A stretch of 64,000 nucleotides of DNA from Arsenicicoccus cauae (lineage in GTDB: Bacteria > Actinomycetota > Actinomycetes > Actinomycetales > Dermatophilaceae): the NCBI RefSeq assembly GCF_009707125.1, contig NZ_WLVL01000006.1:1-64000 (forward strand), in the 5' to 3' direction. Below are positions 744 through 12,841 of the stretch, piece by piece. The notes below the pieces were generated by a model. It worked only from the letters and a program-made list of their open reading frames with translations. It was not told where the DNA came from and searched no databases. The position numbers and the translations under genes were made by a program. Every line of letters starts with the position of its first letter. The stretch's first letter is position 1.

Positions 744-3700
744 TCAGGCTGACTCGCGCAGCGTTTCCCAGAGCTTCATCATCCCCATGATGGTCAGGAT
801 CTCTTCGCGGGACCGGTCGGCGGCCAGGCGTTCAAGCCCGCGTTGCTGACTGTCGGTGGCCTCGACGATGACCTCCTGGATGGTGTGCCACAAGTCTGGC
901 CCGGAGAAGAAGTCGGGCTTGTTGTTGGCGACTGCTTGAGCGCGCAGGTCCTCGTTCTCGAGCATCTTGCGCAGCACCGTCTCGACCGCGGAGACCTGGT
1001 CGCCGTCGGAGAGGCCGTCGCCGTCGAAGAGGGTGTTGATGTGGGCCAGCACCTCCGACCATGGCACCAGGTCGGCCTCGTGGCGACCGCGGGATCCGGC
1101 TGCGAGGACAGACGCGAGCCCCTCGGCCTGCCCGGTCGCCAGGTCGAGTTCCTGCTCGGGCTGCTTGTGCAGCGCGTGGTGGGTCAGAGTGACATCGGAG
1201 AGGTCGATGGTGTCCTCGTGCCGGTTGGAGTCCTTGAGTGCCTCGGCGAGCAACCGCGCGAAGGTCACACGCTTCTCCAGGTCGACGTCGTCGTAGTCGA
1301 CGATCGAGCCGAGGAAGTCGTAGGTGCCGACGAAGGTGCGGAGGTCGCGGCGGAAGGTGTCGAGCCGGTCGGTCTCGCTGTCGTCACGACTCTGCAGTGC
1401 CCGCCGGTATGCCGTGTTGAACCTCTCCTTGACCGGCGCCAGAGCAGCGGACAGCTTCCCCTGATTGGGCTTGGTGGAGCCGTCGCCCCAGTAGGCCCTC
1501 GCGCAGGTGTCAACGTCGACGTCGTCGAAGAGACCGACACCGGCAAGCTTGTCCCACTGGTCGAAGACGATGTTGGGATCGCTGGCCTGCGTGAGGTAGG
1601 CGCCCTCGTAGTAGACCTTGAACGCGTCGAGGACGTCCTCGGCCTGGTTGACGAAGTCCAGCACATAAGTGGTCTTGCCCGGATACACCCGGTTGAGCCG
1701 GGACAGGGTCTGGACGCACTGCACACCGTCGAGCCGCTTGTCCACATACATCGCGCACAGCAGCGGCTGGTCGAACCCGGTCTGGTACTTGTTCGCCACG
1801 ATCAGCACCTGGTACTCGTCCGTCCCCAGCGCCTCCGGGATGGTGCGGCCGCGCAGGTCTCTGTTCATCGAGTGCTCGGTGAACTCTTCCGGCCCGGACT
1901 CGGAGTCCTCGACGGACCCGGAGAACGCGACCAGGGTCGCCACGTCCGTGAGGTGGTGCTCGGCGATGTACTTGTCCATCGCCAGCTTGTAGCGCACCGC
2001 GGACTTGCGGGAGTCTGTGACGACCATGGCCTTGGCGTTGCCGTCGAGCAGGGGCGCGACGTTGGCGCGGAAGTGCTCGACGATGACAGCGACCTTCTGG
2101 CTGATGTTGTACGGGTGCAGCTTGACCCACTGCATCACCGACCTCATCGCCTTCGACTTGTCGACCGTCTCAGAGTCGTAGTCCTGGCCGCCGTGGACCA
2201 GCCGGAATGCGGTCCGGTAGGTGGTGTAGTACTTGAGTACGTCGAGGATGAAGCCCTCCTCGATGGCTTGCTGCATCGAGTACAAGTGGAACGGGACCTT
2301 GTCGACCTCCTCCCCGGCCTGCGAGGTCCCGAACATCTGCAGCGTCTTGCCCTTCGGGGTCGCGGTGAACGCGAAGAACGACACGTTCGGCAGCGCGCCC
2401 CGCCCCTCGAGCTCGAGCCGGACCAGGTCGTCGACGCCGACCGTGCCGTCCTCGTCGGTGACGTCGTCGAGCACCTTGCCCGACAAGGTCTGTCGCAGCT
2501 TATTGGCCGACTCCCCGGTCTGGGAGGAGTGCGCCTCGTCGATGATCACCGCGAACCGCCTTCCGGCCAGCGCCTTGGACTCCCGGATCGCGTCCAGCGC
2601 GTACGGCACCGTCTGGATCGTGACGACGATGATCGCCCCGCCGTTGGTCAGCGCCTCGGTCAGGGCCTGAGACTTGGAGGAGAACCGCTTGGCGAAGTCG
2701 CTGTCGGTGCCCTGCCCGATCGGCAGCACCACGCCCCGCTTGTGGTCGATCTGGTAGATCGCGTCCTGCAGCTGGTCGTCCAGCACAGTCCGGTCGGTGA
2801 TCACCAGCACCGAGTCGAACACCTTGGTCGAGTCGGCGTCATGCAGGGTGGAGAGCTGGTGCGACAGCCACGCGATCGAGTTGGTCTTGCCCGACCCGGC
2901 CGAGTGCTGCACCAGGTACCGCTGCCCCGGCCCGTGCTTCTTCGCATCGGCCAGGAGCGTGGTGACCACGTCGTGCTGGTGGTACCGCGGGAAGATCACC
3001 GTCGAGGACCGGCTGACCTTGCCCGTCGCCGGGTCCTTGTGCTTGCTCACCTGCACATGCATGAACTTGCCCAGGATGTTCAGCCAGGTGTCCCTTGCCA
3101 GCACCTCTTCCCACAGGTATGCCGTGGCCGCCCCGTGCGGGTTCGGCGGGTTCCCGGCGTGGCCGGCGTTACCACGGTTGAACGGCAGGAAGCGGGTCTC
3201 CGGGCCCTCGAGTCGGGTGGTCATGTAGATCTCGGCGTTGTCCACCGCGAAGTGCACCAGGGCCCGGTGACCAGGCGTCAGCAGCGGCTCTCGGCGCCTG
3301 GTCTTGGGGTCCACCGGCGGACGGTCGTGGCGATACTGGCGGATCGCTTCGTGCACGTCCTGCTGGAACTCGCTCTTCAGCTCGGCGGTGGCGACAGGTA
3401 GCCCGTTGACGAAGAAGACCAGGTCGACCGAGTCGGTCTTGTTCTCCGAGTAGTACAACTGTCGTGCGACGCGCAGCCGGTTCTGGGCATACCGCCTCGT
3501 GGCCGTCGGGTTCATCGACTCCGCCGGCCGGAACTGGCACAGGTCCAGCTGCTTGGTGAACTTGAACCCGTAACGCAACGCCGCCAGGGTGCCGCCACCG
3601 GCGTCGAGGGGACGGTCCAGCGACTCGGCAAGCCGGTCCAGCAGTCGCTCCCGGTCCTTGTCGGTCTTCACCATTGCGGCGAGTGTTTCCGGCTGGGTGG

Positions 3701-3842
3701 CCTCCAGCCAGGCGAACAGGTCATCGGGCCACAGCGCCCGCTTCTTGTCGTAGCCGGTGGAGCCTGGCTCGTAGACCCACTCATGCGCCCCGAGGTGGTC
3801 GCACAACTCGTCCTCGAGCTGCCGCTCATGCTCCACCGCCAC
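744..3842 (-). CDS. hsdR: Type I restriction enzyme HsdR, translocase and endonuclease subunit
   Basis: A protein of 1032 residues, normal for HsdR. It cuts unmethylated DNA after ATP-driven translocation in complex with HsdM and HsdS. An N-terminal PD-(D/E)xK nuclease is seen, with D140 and the pair E154/K156 in the strand ATAELKSE. The superfamily 2 motor follows: Walker A SAGSGKT at 314-320, DEAH at 435-438, FTATP as motif III, and a motif VI segment ending QTLSRLNRVYPGKT. A helical C-terminal HsdM-binding region completes it. The gene lies 3 bases beyond the hsdS stop and is the last gene of the GIY-YIG - hsdM - hsdS - hsdR run. All key residues are present, so the subunit looks functional. 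Confidence 0.95.
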   Translation of the reverse strand: MAVEHERQLEDELCDHLGAHEWVYEPGSTGYDKKRALWPDDLFAWLEATQPETLAAMVKTDKDRERLLDRLAESLDRPLDAGGGTLAALRYGFKFTKQLDLCQFRPAESMNPTATRRYAQNRLRVARQLYYSENKTDSVDLVFFVNGLPVATAELKSEFQQDVHEAIRQYRHDRPPVDPKTRRREPLLTPGHRALVHFAVDNAEIYMTTRLEGPETRFLPFNRGNAGHAGNPPNPHGAATAYLWEEVLARDTWLNILGKFMHVQVSKHKDPATGKVSRSSTVIFPRYHQHDVVTTLLADAKKHGPGQRYLVQHSAGSGKTNSIAWLSHQLSTLHDADSTKVFDSVLVITDRTVLDDQLQDAIYQIDHKRGVVLPIGQGTDSDFAKRFSSKSQALTEALTNGGAIIVVTIQTVPYALDAIRESKALAGRRFAVIIDEAHSSQTGESANKLRQTLSGKVLDDVTDEDGTVGVDDLVRLELEGRGALPNVSFFAFTATPKGKTLQMFGTSQAGEEVDKVPFHLYSMQQAIEEGFILDVLKYYTTYRTAFRLVHGGQDYDSETVDKSKAMRSVMQWVKLHPYNISQKVAVIVEHFRANVAPLLDGNAKAMVVTDSRKSAVRYKLAMDKYIAEHHLTDVATLVAFSGSVEDSESGPEEFTEHSMNRDLRGRTIPEALGTDEYQVLIVANKYQTGFDQPLLCAMYVDKRLDGVQCVQTLSRLNRVYPGKTTYVLDFVNQAEDVLDAFKVYYEGAYLTQASDPNIVFDQWDKLAGVGLFDDVDVDTCARAYWGDGSTKPNQGKLSAALAPVKERFNTAYRRALQSRDDSETDRLDTFRRDLRTFVGTYDFLGSIVDYDDVDLEKRVTFARLLAEALKDSNRHEDTIDLSDVTLTHHALHKQPEQELDLATGQAEGLASVLAAGSRGRHEADLVPWSEVLAHINTLFDGDGLSDGDQVSAVETVLRKMLENEDLRAQAVANNKPDFFSGPDLWHTIQEVIVEATDSQQRGLERLAADRSREEILTIMGMMKLWETLRESA

Positions 3843-3845
3843 GCC

Positions 3846-5050
3846 TCAGCCCGCCTTCCCGTAGGTGGTGACGTCCAACCTGCCCTTGACCGCCGCCGTG
3901 ATCAAGGCCGCACGCCGCTCCTTCAGGTTGGCGCTCAGCTCCTGTGCCTTGCCCACCATCGCATCAACTTTGGGCGCGTCCTCCTTCAACGCCCGCGTCA
4001 CCGCGATCTGAGACGCCACGGGCGGCAATGACATCGGCAAGTTGAGCAAGTCCTCCTTGCTGACGTTCTGCATCGAGTGACTGGCCCCTGTTGCCTCCAG
4101 TTCGATCGCCTGACGCATGCGGGAAGTCCCAAGAAGCGTCGAGACGAACCAGGGATCGGCGACCCGTGGATCCACCGTGATCGCATACGTCTTGTCGCTC
4201 AGCATCAGTCGCGGGTACTCATCCTCCACCACCGCGGCACTCCCCACGAGGTCCTTCGTGCTTGCTCGCGATATCACGATCTCTCCGCGTCGGACGACGG
4301 CCTCGACGCGCGGTTCCACGTCAGCGGGGAGCAGCTTGTTCTCATCGGGCCGGAAGACCCCACCGTTGACACAGCCGGTCTTAAGCACGCCCCATTCGGT
4401 GACCCCGTCGGCTGGGACGGACTCGCACTGCGGGCTCGACCCCTGCCGCATCTCCGTCGCGAAGTGCTTGAGGCGTGTCCCAGACGAAGGATCGAGCACG
4501 GCCTCCACGGCCTGCGCGATCGATGACCGGTGGCGTTCGCGGAGGCGGGCGACCAGAGCATCCTGCTTGGCGACGAGCGCGTCGATCTTCGCTGTCTCAC
4601 GGTCCAGGAAGTCCACGATCACCGAAGCGCCCTCGATGCCAGGCCACGAAACTGTGGCGTGCAGGATCTGCGAGGCAGAGAGATGCTTGACCGTCGTGGC
4701 GTAGGTGACAGCGTTGATGGCCTCGAGTTCCTGCGGCAAGGCGTACAGGAGGAACCGAGCCGTGATTGCGTCCGTCCGCAGCAATGCCACCCGCTGATTG
4801 AGAAGCGCGTCCTCAGCTCCCAACCACTGACCGACCTTGAAGTCGCCGTCCATGCCTACGACCACGTCGCCACGCACAACCTTCGCGGCTTCGACGAACT
4901 CGCCGGTGTAGCGGATCTCTGTGGCGTCCGCTCCCACGTCTCGGATCCGAAGCAGCGGATAGCCGTTAGAGGTGTCGAACCGTTCGGAGTCGAACGGGTA
5001 GCCGTTCACCACTTCGGCGAGGTGCTGGACCCGGACCGGCTTGAAGCCGC

Positions 5051-5054
<4 letters not shown>
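3846..5054 (-). CDS. hsdS: Type I restriction-modification specificity subunit HsdS
   Basis: A protein of 402 residues that would set the bipartite target sequence for methylation and cleavage. It has the usual layout: an N-terminal target-recognition domain (about 1-150), a central conserved helical spacer (about 150-190, DFLDRETAKIDALVAKQDAL), a second target-recognition domain (about 195-345) and a C-terminal spacer helix. The ATG overlaps the hsdM stop by 4 bases (ATGA), so the two are translationally coupled. Target-recognition domains vary too much to read the target site from sequence. Both domains are complete and no frame damage is seen. Confidence 0.92.
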
Positions 5055-7063
<2,009 letters not shown>

Positions 7064-7176
7064 CCTCGCCCATCACCGAAGAGCCTCTGCGCAGCGGCCT
7101 TCCCGCGCCGCGACAGTTGCCGATTCACTGCTCGACAGATCGGCGTTGGACACCGGTCGCGCACCTGGTGGTTCCG

Positions 7177-7986
7177 TCAGTTGCGGTTGAGCCCGTGTCG
7201 GCGGGAGTCGAGTGCACGCTTGTAGTGGCTCTCGGCGGCGTTGATCTCCCGCGTCGGCGTGGCAGGGTCAAACACGCGCAGCACCGAGAAACGGAAAGTC
7301 ATCGGGTCCCGTCCCTTGAGCTCCACGTTCCCTCCGTGGCCGTTGGCCGCGTAGGCAGTCCAGCGCTGCAGCACACTCGCGGTGCCGTCTGCCTTGCCGA
7401 CGTACTGTCGACCGTCCCGGGTGTCGGTGATGAGGTAGATGCCCATGACCGATGAGAGCGCGGTTCGCCAGGTGGCGTACCGGTGCTCACGGACCACCGC
7501 CTGCAGCTGTGAGTAGTCCAACGTGAGCGCGTCGAAGCCGGGGAACCTCACAGGCTCGGCGTCGGCGATCTCCATGACCGGATAGCGCGCCGCCGTCGTG
7601 GCCTTGAGCGCCCAGGTGCGCGGTGACCTCCAACCGATCACCAGACGTGACTGCAGGTCGCTCAGCTGGTCCGACCGCTCCAGGTCGAACGTGCGCCTGA
7701 CGCCGTCGTTGGAAGTCTCACCATGACTCCGGACCACCGACCACAGGCGAGCACGGTCACCGCCCTCGGGCAGGAACACCACCCAGACGCCGGGCGGTGC
7801 GGCCGGGAAGGCGCGGGTGTTGGCCGACTGATTGCTGGTGTAACCCATGATCTCAGCATCAGAGGAGTCCCCGTGGATCCCCGCTGATCCGTCCCCGTGC
7901 TCACGCACGTAGGCGTGCCGAATCACCAACGCCTCCAACGGGTCGATACCGGCGCTGTCCATGACCTGCGCGAACGTAAGCGTCAT
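7177..7986 (-). CDS. GIY-YIG endonuclease-domain protein linked to the type I R-M genes
   Basis: A protein of 269 residues from the ATG at 7986, chosen because GGAGG sits 7 bases upstream; a longer frame starts at 8028. The C-terminal third is a GIY-YIG nuclease: GIYLIT at 182-187, YVGK at 195-198, R208, E252 and N267 fit the Tyr-Tyr-Arg-Glu-Asn catalytic set of the superfamily. The N-terminal 180 residues form a separate domain that I cannot name; it is mixed alpha/beta with no transmembrane segment and probably recognises DNA or a modified base. It is the first gene of the run leading into hsdM-hsdS-hsdR, which suggests an accessory restriction activity. The nuclease fold is clear; its place in defence is inferred from position. 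Confidence 0.8.
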   Translation of the reverse strand: MTLTFAQVMDSAGIDPLEALVIRHAYVREHGDGSAGIHGDSSDAEIMGYTSNQSANTRAFPAAPPGVWVVFLPEGGDRARLWSVVRSHGETSNDGVRRTFDLERSDQLSDLQSRLVIGWRSPRTWALKATTAARYPVMEIADAEPVRFPGFDALTLDYSQLQAVVREHRYATWRTALSSVMGIYLITDTRDGRQYVGKADGTASVLQRWTAYAANGHGGNVELKGRDPMTFRFSVLRVFDPATPTREINAAESHYKRALDSRRHGLNRN

Positions 7987-8075
7987 AGGCCTGCCTCCGT
8001 GTCGATCAGCACACCGCTGAAGCAACACTCATAACGAAAAATGATGAAGATCGCTCTTACGGATAACCGTGGGGA

Positions 8076-8194: not shown

Positions 8195-10831
8195 CTAAAA
8201 GTTGGTGGCCATGTTGGTGAAGCGGGAGTAGTGGCCCTGGAAGGCGACCACGATCGTGCCAGTGGGACCGTTTCGGTGCTTGGCCACGATCACGTCAGCC
8301 TCGCCCTCGCGGGGAGATTCCTTCTCGTACATCGACTCTCGGTGCAGCAGCACGACCATGTCGGCATCCTGCTCGATCGAGCCCGATTCGCGCAGGTCGG
8401 AGACCATCGGCTTCTTGTCGGTGCGCTGCTCGGGCCCACGGTTCAGCTGCGACAAGGCGATGACCGGCACCTCGATCTCCTTGGCCAGGAGCTTGAGGGC
8501 GCGGGAGAACTCCGAGACCTCCTGCTGGCGGGACTCGACGCGCTTGCCGGAGCTCATCAGCTGCAGGTAGTCGATGACCACGAGCTTGAGGTTGTTGCGC
8601 TGCTTGAGCCGGCGGCACTTGGCGCGGATCTCCATGAGGGACATGTTGGGCGAGTCGTCGATGAAGAACGGCGCCTCGCTGAGCCGCCCGGTCGTGCGGG
8701 CGATCTTGGTCCAGTCGTCGTCCTGCAGCTCGCCCTTGCGCAGCTTCTGCAGCTGGATCGAGGCCTCGGCCGAGAGCAAACGCATGGTGATCTCGGTCTT
8801 GCTCATCTCGAGGCTGAACAGGACGGTGGCCTGCTGGTTGTGGATCGCCGCCGACCGCGCGATGTCAAGCGCGAGCGTGGAGTTGTGGGTCGGGATCATT
8901 GACCTGCCGGCGAGATACAGGTGGTCGTCGTTGCTCACCTGGATGCAGCGCACGGGCACCGAGGCGATGGGCTTCACCTTCGTGATGAAGCGGGAGTTTC
9001 TCCGCTGGAACTGGCGGCGACGAAGCTCCTTGTGCAGCAGCCTCTTGCGCTCCAGCACGAACACGTCCTCGTCCGAGGAGAAGGTGATCGTGAAGGCCGT
9101 CGAGCTTGCCGCCGAGCGGCCGCGCACCTTCTTGCGGCACATGCCACTTCGGTAGCCCAAGCCGGAGATGAGTTCATGTACGTCCTCGGCGAGGCGCAGG
9201 CTGGTGGTGGTGAATTGCACGCACCCGCCTGCAGACACGGTCCCGTCGGTGTCGAGGAGGCCAGCCAGCAGGGCGCGCCGCTGGGACTCGCTGGCCCGCT
9301 GGTACTCAACGGGGATGTGCTTGTCGCCGAGGACGCCGATCGTCCGGAGGCGGGCCTGGAGGGTTCCATGATGCTTCCGGCATGCCATGCACTGGCGGCC
9401 CGTCGTGGTGGGGCCGCCGCAGTCGGGGCAGACTGGCGTGGCGATCGGCTTCTGAAACGCCTTGAGGCGCCCCCCGCACGACTTGCCACACGTCCTGACG
9501 TAGGCAACGGGGTTGGTGAACGACGTCCCACACACGGCGCAGCTCCTCTGCTCAGCGACCACCTCGGTGGCGAGCTGCATGAGATAGCGCATCGGGGACG
9601 ACGTCTTGGTCACGACCAGTCCATCGGCCTCGAGCCTCATCACGATCTCGGGGTCCGCCATCATGATCTGCGCAGCAGCAGACGTCCCGTCTCCCAGCCA
9701 GGCCCCCAGCGTGTACGGCTGGACCAGGAGCTCCCGCTCCGCGAGGGCGAGCGCAGCCGCCAGCGGCACGCTGTGGTTGAGGCGTGCGTCGGCTGTGCCC
9801 GTGCGCACCGTCGCAGCAATCTCCTCCGTGGTCCGGATCGCGGCGAACGTCCGCTGATTGCGCTGACCGTTCCTGCCGTCACGAGCGGCCTGAAGAGACT
9901 TGCGGCTGGCGCGCGTATCCGTCAGCCACTGGTGCTGGGCATCGGCCACGATGGTCGAGCCGTCCGAGAAGGACACCTCGTAGCAGGGTCGGTCGGTCAT
10001 GACCTCGGTCGCAGCGACCACGCGGGTCGGACGACCGTCGGCCCCAATGACCTCGTCACCGACCTGAACCTCACCCATCGTGGTCCAGCCGGCCGGCGTC
10101 ACGAGGGGGGTGTCGAGCGCAAGCGCCTTGCCGACGGCCGGTCGAGCGGCGATCACGATCATCTGGCCGGGGTGCAGACCGTTGGTGAGCTGGTCGAGCT
10201 CGGTGAAGCCGGTGGGCACGCCGACCATCTCGCCGTTCTTGCCCGAGGCGTGCTCGATCTCGTCGATCGTGGCCTCGAGCACCTCGCCGACAGCGATGTA
10301 GTCCTCGCCGCCGCGCTTGTCGGCGACCTGGTAGACCTCGGCCTGCGCGGCGTTGACGATGTCCTCGACGTCGCCGCCCTGGCCATAGCCCATCTGCACG
10401 ATGCGCGTGCCCGCGTCGACGAGGCGCCTCAGGACGGCGCGCTCCTGCACGATCTCGGCGTAGTAGCCCGCGTTGGCCGCCGTCGGCACGGCGTCGATCA
10501 GCTGGTGCAGGTAGGCCTGGCCGCCGATGCGCTGGATCTCGCCGCGCTTGGTGAGCTCGTCGGCGACGGTGATGGCGTCGGCCGGCTCGCCGCGACCGTA
10601 GAGGTCGATGATCGCCTCGTAGATCGTCTCGTGCGCGGGGCGATAGAAGTCGAGCCCGCGCAGCGTCTCGACGCAGTCGGCGATCGCGTCCTTGGACAGC
10701 ATCATCGAGCCGAGGACGGACTGCTCCGCGTGCACGTCCTGGGGCGGCACGCGGTCGTCGCCACCGCCCCCACCAGGTCCCCCCACCGCGGGGCCGTAGT
10801 CCCGACGGTCGTCCAGCTCGGCGATCGACAC
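8195..10831 (-). CDS. dnaB: Replicative DNA helicase DnaB, precursor with an intein in the P-loop
   Basis: The precursor is 878 residues. Removal of the intein at residues 236-650 leaves about 463, normal for DnaB. The mature protein is the hexameric fork helicase. An N-terminal DnaB domain (about 32-135) precedes the RecA-like helicase domain; Walker A is rebuilt as ARPAVGK plus STLALD across the splice site, and Walker B is LVVIDYLQLM. The start is a GTG at 10831 with GAGGGAG six bases upstream. Helicase activity depends on splicing, because the intein splits the ATP-binding lysine from the following Ser-Thr. The promoter region holds a cluster of DnaA boxes. The usual neighbours rpsF, ssb, rpsR and rplI are not seen in this window. 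Confidence 0.97.
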   Translation of the reverse strand: MSIAELDDRRDYGPAVGGPGGGGGDDRVPPQDVHAEQSVLGSMMLSKDAIADCVETLRGLDFYRPAHETIYEAIIDLYGRGEPADAITVADELTKRGEIQRIGGQAYLHQLIDAVPTAANAGYYAEIVQERAVLRRLVDAGTRIVQMGYGQGGDVEDIVNAAQAEVYQVADKRGGEDYIAVGEVLEATIDEIEHASGKNGEMVGVPTGFTELDQLTNGLHPGQMIVIAARPAVGKALALDTPLVTPAGWTTMGEVQVGDEVIGADGRPTRVVAATEVMTDRPCYEVSFSDGSTIVADAQHQWLTDTRASRKSLQAARDGRNGQRNQRTFAAIRTTEEIAATVRTGTADARLNHSVPLAAALALAERELLVQPYTLGAWLGDGTSAAAQIMMADPEIVMRLEADGLVVTKTSSPMRYLMQLATEVVAEQRSCAVCGTSFTNPVAYVRTCGKSCGGRLKAFQKPIATPVCPDCGGPTTTGRQCMACRKHHGTLQARLRTIGVLGDKHIPVEYQRASESQRRALLAGLLDTDGTVSAGGCVQFTTTSLRLAEDVHELISGLGYRSGMCRKKVRGRSAASSTAFTITFSSDEDVFVLERKRLLHKELRRRQFQRRNSRFITKVKPIASVPVRCIQVSNDDHLYLAGRSMIPTHNSTLALDIARSAAIHNQQATVLFSLEMSKTEITMRLLSAEASIQLQKLRKGELQDDDWTKIARTTGRLSEAPFFIDDSPNMSLMEIRAKCRRLKQRNNLKLVVIDYLQLMSSGKRVESRQQEVSEFSRALKLLAKEIEVPVIALSQLNRGPEQRTDKKPMVSDLRESGSIEQDADMVVLLHRESMYEKESPREGEADVIVAKHRNGPTGTIVVAFQGHYSRFTNMATNF
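8882..10126 (-). mobile_element. DnaB intein, class 3 type, with LAGLIDADG homing endonuclease and Cys-rich insert
   Basis: The insert is 415 residues (A236-N650 of the precursor), lying between the P-loop Lys and Ser. It begins with Ala, not Cys or Ser, and ends Thr-His-Asn followed by Ser. The Trp in AQHQWLTD (block B), the Cys in VRCIQV (block F) and the Thr in PTHN (block G) match the Trp-Cys-Thr set that defines class 3 inteins, in which the block F Cys is the first nucleophile (family knowledge; mycobacterial and phage DnaB inteins are examples). Two LAGLIDADG motifs are seen, LGAWLGDG and LLAGLLDTDG. Between them lie four CxxC/CxxxC-type pairs (430-484), unusual for this enzyme type. 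The endonuclease acidic residues are intact. Confidence 0.92.
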
Positions 10832-10947: not shown

Positions 10948-11395
10948 TGTGGACAAACCTGTGGACAAGTCGGATGGCCCTGGGCGAACGACATCACCCG
11001 GACGGGCTGCTGCGCCACGTTAGGGGCCGGGAGGAGACCCGGGCAAACGGGGGCTGTGGACAAGGTGGGGACAACACGCCGTGGCGTGTGCGCAACCCTG
11101 GGGACAAGCCTGTGGAGGGAGTGTGACTTTGCCGTGACCTATCGCTTCACCATCGCTGTGACCAGCCCCTACGCCGTCCACCGCCTGTGCACAGAAGATT
11201 TGTGCGGGAGGTTAGGCCATTTGAGGACGCCGCCGCGCGGTGTGGACAAACCGTCTCATCACCGACACGCCGACCCCCGCCCTGCCGCGCCGGATCTCGC
11301 TCAATGTCACCGGTACAACACTCACAGCAACCGTCCGGGCTTCTGACCTGCGACTTCCCACATGGGGCCGACGGACCTGTCACATCTGTGGACAA
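10948..11395 (+). promoter_or_regulatory. Cluster of DnaA boxes upstream of dnaB
   Basis: TGTGGACAA, the complement of the high-GC DnaA box TTGTCCACA, occurs exactly at 10948-10956, 10960-10968, 11055-11063, 11241-11249 and 11387-11395. One-mismatch copies (TGGGGACAA) are at 11066-11074 and 11099-11107. All seven point the same way. The rest of the 660-base gap between dnaB (start 10831) and the MATE gene holds no open frame I can support. The cluster could let DnaA regulate dnaB, or titrate DnaA. It is not oriC by gene content. Confidence 0.7.
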
Positions 11396-11491: not shown

Positions 11492-12841
11492 GTGACGAGC
11501 GACCGGGGGGCCCAGCCGCCGCCCTCCCCCGCCCGCGAGATCCTGCGCCTCGCCGTCCCCGCCTTCCTCGCCCTCGTCGCCGAGCCGCTCTTCCTCCTCG
11601 CCGACAGCGCCATCGTCGGCCACCTCGGCACCCCGCAGCTCGCCGGCCTCGGCGTCGCGAGCGCCGCCCTGCTGACCGCGGCCAACATCTTCGTCTTCCT
11701 CGCCTACGGCACCACCAGCATCGTGGCCCGCCACGTCGGCGCCGGTGACGAGCGCGGCGCCGTCGCCAACGGCCTCGACGGCGTGTGGCTCGCCGCGGCC
11801 CTCGGGCTCGTCACCAGCCTGCTGGTCGCGGCCTTCGCCCGCCCCCTCGTGGCGGCGTTCGGCGCGAGCCCGGACGCCCTCGTCCACGCCGAGCACTACC
11901 TGCGCGCGAGCGCCGCCGGCATCCCCGCGATGCTCGTGGTCCTCGCCGCCACCGGCATCCTGCGCGGCGTCCAGGACACCACCACGCCCCTGGTCGTGTC
12001 CGTCGCCGGTTTCACGTGCAACGTCGCCCTCAACGTCCTGCTCGTCTACGGCCTGCACCTCGGGATCGTCGGCTCGGCCATCGGCACGGTGATCAGCCAG
12101 TGGGGTATGGCGGTCGCCCTGCTCCTCGTCGTGGTGCGGGCAGCGCGGCGGCTCGACGCCTCCCTGCGCCCGCATCCGGGGCGGGTGCTGGTGGCCGCGC
12201 GGGGCGGCATACCGCTGCTCGTCCGCACGCTGGCGCTGCGCACGGTCCTGCTGCTGACCACGTGGGTCGCGGCGGGTCTGGGTGACGTGCCGCTCGGCGC
12301 CTACCAGGTGAGCGCGACGGTGTGGAGCTTCCTCACCTTTGCCCTGGACGCGCTGGCGATCGCCGCGCAGGCCCTGACGGGCAAGGCCCTCGGCGCCGGG
12401 GACACCGCAGGCACCCGCGCCGCCACCACCCTCATGATCCGCTGGGGCCTCATCGGCGGCGCGGTCCTCGGCGCCCTGGTCCTCGCGCTGCACACCGTGC
12501 TGCCACACCTGTTCACGAGCGACCCCGAGACCCAGGCCGCCCTCGCCGCCGGCCTGGTCGTGGTGGCGCTGTCGCAGCCGATCTCGGGGTGGGTCTTCGT
12601 CCTCGACGGGGTGCTGATCGGCGCCGGCGACACCCGCTGGCTGGCGTGGGCGCAGCTCGCGCTCCTCGTGGCCTATGTCCCCGTCGTGCTGGTCGTCCGG
12701 CACGTCGCCGGCCCGCTCGACGACCCCGCGGCCGTGGTGTGGCTCTGGGTCGGGTTCAGCATCTTCATGACCCTGCGCGGCATCGCGCTCGGCCTGCGCG
12801 CCCGCTCCGACGCCTGGCTCGTCACCGGCGCCACCCGCTGA
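11492..12841 (+). CDS. MATE family multidrug / metabolite exporter
   Basis: A protein of 449 residues from the GTG at 11492, the usual size for MATE. The open frame extends to 11240, but the upstream part crosses the DnaA-box region and lacks coding character, and a TATGCT -10 box sits six bases before the GTG, so a leaderless start is preferred. About twelve hydrophobic segments are present in two halves. The first begins ILRLAVPAFLALVAEPLFLLAD, containing the conserved P and the LADSAIVGHLG signature of the DinF-like branch. It would export cationic or other compounds using a Na+ or H+ gradient. It is transcribed away from dnaB. The substrate is unknown. Confidence 0.88.
   Translation: MTSDRGAQPPPSPAREILRLAVPAFLALVAEPLFLLADSAIVGHLGTPQLAGLGVASAALLTAANIFVFLAYGTTSIVARHVGAGDERGAVANGLDGVWLAAALGLVTSLLVAAFARPLVAAFGASPDALVHAEHYLRASAAGIPAMLVVLAATGILRGVQDTTTPLVVSVAGFTCNVALNVLLVYGLHLGIVGSAIGTVISQWGMAVALLLVVVRAARRLDASLRPHPGRVLVAARGGIPLLVRTLALRTVLLLTTWVAAGLGDVPLGAYQVSATVWSFLTFALDALAIAAQALTGKALGAGDTAGTRAATTLMIRWGLIGGAVLGALVLALHTVLPHLFTSDPETQAALAAGLVVVALSQPISGWVFVLDGVLIGAGDTRWLAWAQLALLVAYVPVVLVVRHVAGPLDDPAAVVWLWVGFSIFMTLRGIALGLRARSDAWLVTGATR

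Follow-up and report, generated by a model that had tools for sequence, protein, structure and literature searches.

The replicative helicase gene dnaB of Arsenicicoccus cauae is preceded by an array of seven DnaA boxes, and DnaA likely activates dnaB transcription directly through this same-strand array, tying helicase supply to the level of the initiator. DnaA control of helicase supply had been put forward by the first-pass annotation, which saw the letters alone. It is now supported by the persistence of the array at dnaB loci that have no transporter neighbour, by an 11-bp phasing of the boxes to a conserved promoter, and by binding and expression data from mycobacteria (excerpts of PMC7738170).

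The box array and its genomic setting

In the window, i.e. the whole stretch of 64,000 nucleotides that was analysed, positions 10948-11395 carry five exact copies of TGTGGACAA and two one-mismatch copies, TGGGGACAA, all in a single orientation, so that the seven boxes originally reported upstream of dnaB are all found again. On the minus strand, which is the coding strand of dnaB, these copies read TTGTCCACA and TTGTCCCCA, respectively, and TTGTCCACA is the DnaA-box form that is repeated at oriC of the same genome. The array sits inside the 660-nt gap separating dnaB from a divergent gene encoding a MATE-family transporter (Table 1). Directly 3' of dnaB, the window carries type I restriction-modification genes (HsdR, specificity subunit and HsdM) and a gene with a GIY-YIG domain (744-8028); a lone exact DnaA box is found at 1738, within hsdR. 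The LAGLIDADG intein of dnaB directly follows an ARPAVGK motif, and the dnaB open frames of relatives range from 456 to >1400 aa, which suggests that the intein insert was gained and lost among them.

Table 1. Features of the dnaB upstream region and flanking genes (window coordinates; -35 and -10 refer to the predicted dnaB promoter)
Feature	Position	Strand	Remarks
dnaB, replicative helicase, 878 aa, LAGLIDADG intein inside	8195..10831	-	PF00772, PF03796, PF14528
DnaA box, exact	10948..10956	-	predicted dnaB 5' leader; common to L006, absent in L005 and L007
DnaA box, exact	10960..10968	-	predicted dnaB 5' leader, downstream of start point; TTATCCACA or TTGTCCACA there in 4/4 aligned genus members
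Predicted -10 hexamer TAACGT (family consensus TAgcgT)	11017..11022	-	18-nt spacer; predicted start ~11010
Predicted -35 hexamer TTGCCC	11041..11046	-	alignment of relatives
DnaA box, exact TTGTCCACA	11055..11063	-	first base 17 nt 5' of -35; centre ~-49 from predicted start; kept in genus and family
DnaA box TTGTCCCCA, one mismatch	11066..11074	-	first base 28 nt 5' of -35; centre ~-60
DnaA box TTGTCCCCA, one mismatch	11099..11107	-	first base 61 nt 5' of -35
DnaA box, exact	11241..11249	-	first base 203 nt 5' of -35; kept in L005, L006 and L007
DnaA box, exact	11387..11395	-	349 nt 5' of -35; nearest box to MATE gene; kept in L006 and L007, altered in L005
MATE-family transporter gene, divergent	11492..12841	+	PF01554; own TATGCT ~10 nt 5' of start codon

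The genome-wide count that had been proposed gives 27 exact copies of TTGTCCACA in 3,423,857 bases, five of them at the dnaB array, three at oriC and the others scattered. The array is thus the densest exact-box cluster of the 3.42-Mb genome, exceeding oriC, and nowhere else, unrelated promoters included, does the density come close. At the genome density, 0.0035 copies are expected in 448 bp (P(>=5) = 4.6e-15, or about 1.6e-8 after correcting for every start position), in agreement with the earlier estimate that chance would give almost none. The oriC genes, recorded as absent by the first-pass annotation, are indeed absent from the window but not from the contig, where dnaA, dnaN and oriC are located at 96.7-99.2 kb. 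This oriC (C55:98635-99001) lies about 87 kb from the array, between dnaA and dnaN, and carries boxes in both orientations.

Some of the remaining exact copies belong to a different, composite element, of which they form one half, so that true DnaA clusters are even scarcer than the count implies. They are found at dnaB, at oriC, in the rpmH-dnaA gap (96785-96866, one-mismatch boxes) and upstream of crgA (from C55:122986). The cluster adjacent to crgA (L135 1489-1587, i.e. C55:122986-123084) comprises five DnaA boxes in both orientations, the gene being identified by PF06781; we take Rv0011c to be crgA. This cluster matches the Rv0010c-Rv0011c DnaA site of M. tuberculosis (excerpts of PMC7738170), which suggests that this site is conserved beyond mycobacteria.

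The composite element, found on checking the other TTGTCCACA copies, has the form GTCCACAG-N2-3-G(T/A)CGCGT-spacer-GTCCACA with halves 31 bp apart, and its half-site resembles the DnaA box. In A. cauae, it occurs at C8:14285, C8:53617, C11:46234, C14:69419, C14:86291, C16:44109, C31:66193 and C53:33963 (L239-L248), upstream of comEA-comEC, yraN-comM-dprA, an SSB paralogue and genes encoding a PD-(D/E)XK nuclease, a SAF-domain (Flp-pilus-like) protein and a DUF2695 protein; another SSB gene is preceded by a 40-bp variant. It recurs before these genes in further members of the genus and, with a different spacing, in G020, and its occurrences in relatives include L250, L252, L253, L262, L264, L267, L269, L271, L272 and L275. 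An open pattern search in 39 genomes (A. cauae and relatives) again returned comEA, yraN-comM, the nuclease gene and the SAF-domain gene, as well as an ssb relative in a single genome; the control gave one match over all 39 genomes. The element looks like a candidate operator of an actinobacterial competence (natural-transformation) regulon; for Micrococcus luteus, a 2026 paper describes the competence regulon as unknown (PMC12849477). Two families, f36 (G131, G150, G169, G178, G187, G160) and f31 (G068, G086), harbour many dispersed same-strand TTGTCCACA pairs away from dnaB, with a near-constant spacing (29 nt in f36 and about 27 nt in f31) and variable intervening DNA. These pairs are possibly the same kind of element.

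Conservation across the class and phasing to a predicted promoter

The comparison with related genera that had been suggested was run on the 1000 nt located 5' of dnaB in 50 relatives and about 60 more genomes of the class, box counts accepting at most one mismatch and being compared with those of shuffled sequences. The dnaB loci of the family (33 loci) contain 143 boxes against 6.5 in shuffles, those of the order (17 loci) 60 against 1.9, and those of the class (62 loci) 158 against 9.1. Boxes on the dnaB strand outnumber those on the opposite strand at each level (119:24 in the family, 43:17 in the order and 120:38 in the class), and most of the >110 class loci have same-strand boxes 200-500 nt ahead of the dnaB start. 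Judged by these alignments and counts, the box arrangement at dnaB is conserved across the actinobacterial class. In 20 dnaB loci taken from the remaining classes of this phylum, zero or one box is present, and once two. Two order-level dnaB loci, L047 (G041) and L048 (G046), are without any box; G046 also has the largest dnaB-dnaA distance among those computed (268 kb), a single case. In the Streptomyces-type loci (L056-L066 and L069), a genus-conserved TTATCCACA on the opposite strand lies about 14 nt 5' of the dnaB -35, and the action of this box might differ from that of the phased boxes on the dnaB strand.

An alignment of 20 relatives reveals a conserved sigma-A-type promoter, TTGnnn-N17/18-TAgcgT, directly 3' of the box-rich stretch. 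For each sequence, the best promoter was picked by its -35 and -10 alone, box positions being unused, and the boxes were then measured from the -35; the -10 score favoured TANNGT, which was chosen after viewing the family alignment. Among 73 promoters, 69 have a same-strand box at most 110 nt 5' of the -35, and the 150 nt 5' of the -35 contain 172 boxes, compared with 4 in a distant 300-nt control. Box positions fall on an 11.0-bp grid relative to the predicted -35 (R=0.84 for these 172 boxes), whereas, when each sequence is jittered by at most 5 bp, R averages 0.10 and does not exceed 0.34. The phasing is also found with exact boxes alone (R=0.87), with one sequence per family outside the order (R=0.73, 28 boxes) and in a second set that partly overlaps the first in its genomes (Knoellia, Pedococcus, Arthrobacter, Cellulomonas, Streptomyces, Jiangella and others; R=0.89). 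Rayleigh P values overstate the significance, as the sequences are related. Spacings between same-strand boxes in the dnaB upstream regions of relatives likewise peak at 11/12, 22, 33, 44/45, 55/56 and 66. Since the boxes are 11 bp or multiples of 11 bp apart, they lie on the same face of the DNA.

Relative to the predicted start, box centres cluster near -48, -59, -70, -80, -92, -103, -114 and -125, and the slot occupied by box 11066 in A. cauae (-27/-28/-29 relative to the -35) is the most used box position class-wide. A protein bound to one helix face at about -60, -70 and -80, 5' of an intact -35, has the usual geometry of a class I activator, which contacts RNA polymerase. Centres from -48 to -103 are typical activator positions on one DNA face. 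Three of the seven A. cauae boxes (11387, 10960 and 10948) are off strict phase, two of them (10960 and 10948) being downstream of the predicted start; these leader boxes and the far box 11387 may have another role, e.g. repression at high DnaA.

A model for dnaB activation and its alternatives

Taken as a whole, the control of dnaB can be pictured as follows. DnaA would bind the same-strand boxes spaced by 11 bp or multiples thereof, and therefore one DNA face, directly 5' of the sigma-A-type -35. DnaA at about -49 and -60 would be able to touch RNA polymerase, and further DnaA on the upstream boxes would stabilise the complex cooperatively. Transcription of dnaB would then go up with active DnaA, linking helicase supply to initiator level, while the two leader boxes seen in this genus may add repression when DnaA is high. 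For A. cauae itself, we infer that DnaA binds the array, contacts RNA polymerase and activates dnaB instead of repressing it; the arrangement probably lets DnaA control helicase supply.

More tentatively, the dnaB promoter of all Actinomycetes could be a dedicated DnaA-activated promoter, at which an oligomer on 11-bp-phased boxes acts in a class I-like manner. Transcription of dnaB would thereby read out DnaA assembly and couple helicase supply to initiation potential, and the leader boxes found here would turn this response into a pulse.

Among the other explanations, the array could be a titrating or inactivating site like datA of E. coli and the clusters of B. subtilis and S. coelicolor, which would soak up DnaA after an early duplication and delay re-initiation, its adjacency to dnaB being incidental. 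This seems unlikely, although the array is the densest exact-box cluster in the genome and is, as expected of datA and titration clusters, located outside oriC and near the origin. Titrating clusters do exist in S. coelicolor and B. subtilis (excerpts of PMC5742627). In every complete genome with a computed distance, dnaB lies 24 to about 270 kb from dnaA and is thus duplicated early; dnaA was located there with a generic DnaA-like query, used for locating only (83% identity to the A. cauae dnaA, which adjoins dnaN). The distance from oriC cannot separate activation from titration, as dnaB is near the origin in all the complete genomes compared. However, titration needs neither a single orientation, nor a promoter phase, nor a tie to one gene, and many relatives hold just 2 to 4 boxes, which is not enough to make a strong sink. 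Titration by the array may rather be a side effect of dnaB activation.

Alternatively, DnaA could repress dnaB by binding over or around the promoter and blocking RNA polymerase at high DnaA-ATP. Boxes are indeed located on both sides of the promoter in this genus, including the two downstream of the predicted start, and in E. coli, DnaA acts as a repressor of dnaA and, when abundant, of nrdAB (PMC8203912). Such a role as the main one has a slim chance, as the boxes conserved class-wide are 5' of the -35 and not over it, and as weaker DnaA binding accompanies lower dnaB expression in M. tuberculosis (excerpts of PMC7738170).

That the boxes control the divergent MATE gene is very improbable. 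The gap is common to both genes and about 97 nt separate box 11387 from the MATE start, but a MATE neighbour was found beside dnaB (flanks of 1.5-2 kb) in only 49 of 115 loci, so that the array goes with dnaB; most of the 66 loci without this neighbour have the array, and box position and phase follow the dnaB promoter. The array therefore belongs to dnaB and not to the MATE gene. A second replication origin or helicase-loading site is scarcely credible: a DnaA-box cluster does adjoin dnaB, but the contig has a normal oriC between dnaA and dnaN, the boxes of which occur in both orientations, neither of these genes is adjacent to the array, and the segment has no long AT-rich stretch (GC >=0.59 in every 100-nt window). 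A DnaA-reactivating sequence (DARS), the core of which consists of facing DnaA boxes, was also considered and rejected, as all seven boxes point in the same direction.

If the activation of dnaB by DnaA holds, the initiator would, across a large bacterial class, also set the supply of the helicase that it loads, by means of a promoter design kept throughout the class.

Relation to known DnaA-binding sites

The closest counterpart is the dnaB site of M. tuberculosis (Rv0057 region) and its M. smegmatis homologue, an extra-origin DnaA site at the same gene in the same class (this and the mycobacterial data below are from excerpts of PMC7738170). By IDAP-seq in M. tuberculosis and ChIP-seq in M. 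smegmatis, DnaA was mapped to five regions, including oriC, rpmH-dnaA, Rv0010c-Rv0011c and the dnaB upstream region, and the M. tuberculosis DnaA variant I282T, which binds more weakly upstream of dnaB, uniquely under-expresses dnaB. The phased architecture offers a mechanism for this lowered expression. The other top mycobacterial sites (oriC, rpmH-dnaA and crgA upstream) also bear box clusters in the A. cauae genome. Compared with the mycobacterial dnaB site, the A. cauae array has more and stronger boxes; the boxes, phasing and promoter architecture of the mycobacterial site are not described in these excerpts. DnaA at the dnaB promoter is thus already known for mycobacteria. A class-wide, promoter-phased box architecture, of which no description was found in the literature searched, may be new.

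Outside the phylum, dnaB of C. crescentus belongs to the DnaA regulon, with predicted DnaA boxes upstream, as in A. cauae, and DnaA-dependent expression (Hottes 2005, cited in PMC8203912, seen in excerpt). Within actinobacteria, S. coelicolor also has DnaA-box clusters on its chromosome away from oriC, to which the repression of untimely initiation is ascribed (Smulczyk-Krawczyszyn 2006, cited in PMC5742627, seen in excerpt). With datA of E. coli and the B. subtilis clusters, the A. cauae array has in common that it is a non-origin DnaA-box cluster near the origin; unlike those of these clusters, its boxes are phased to a promoter and tied to dnaB.
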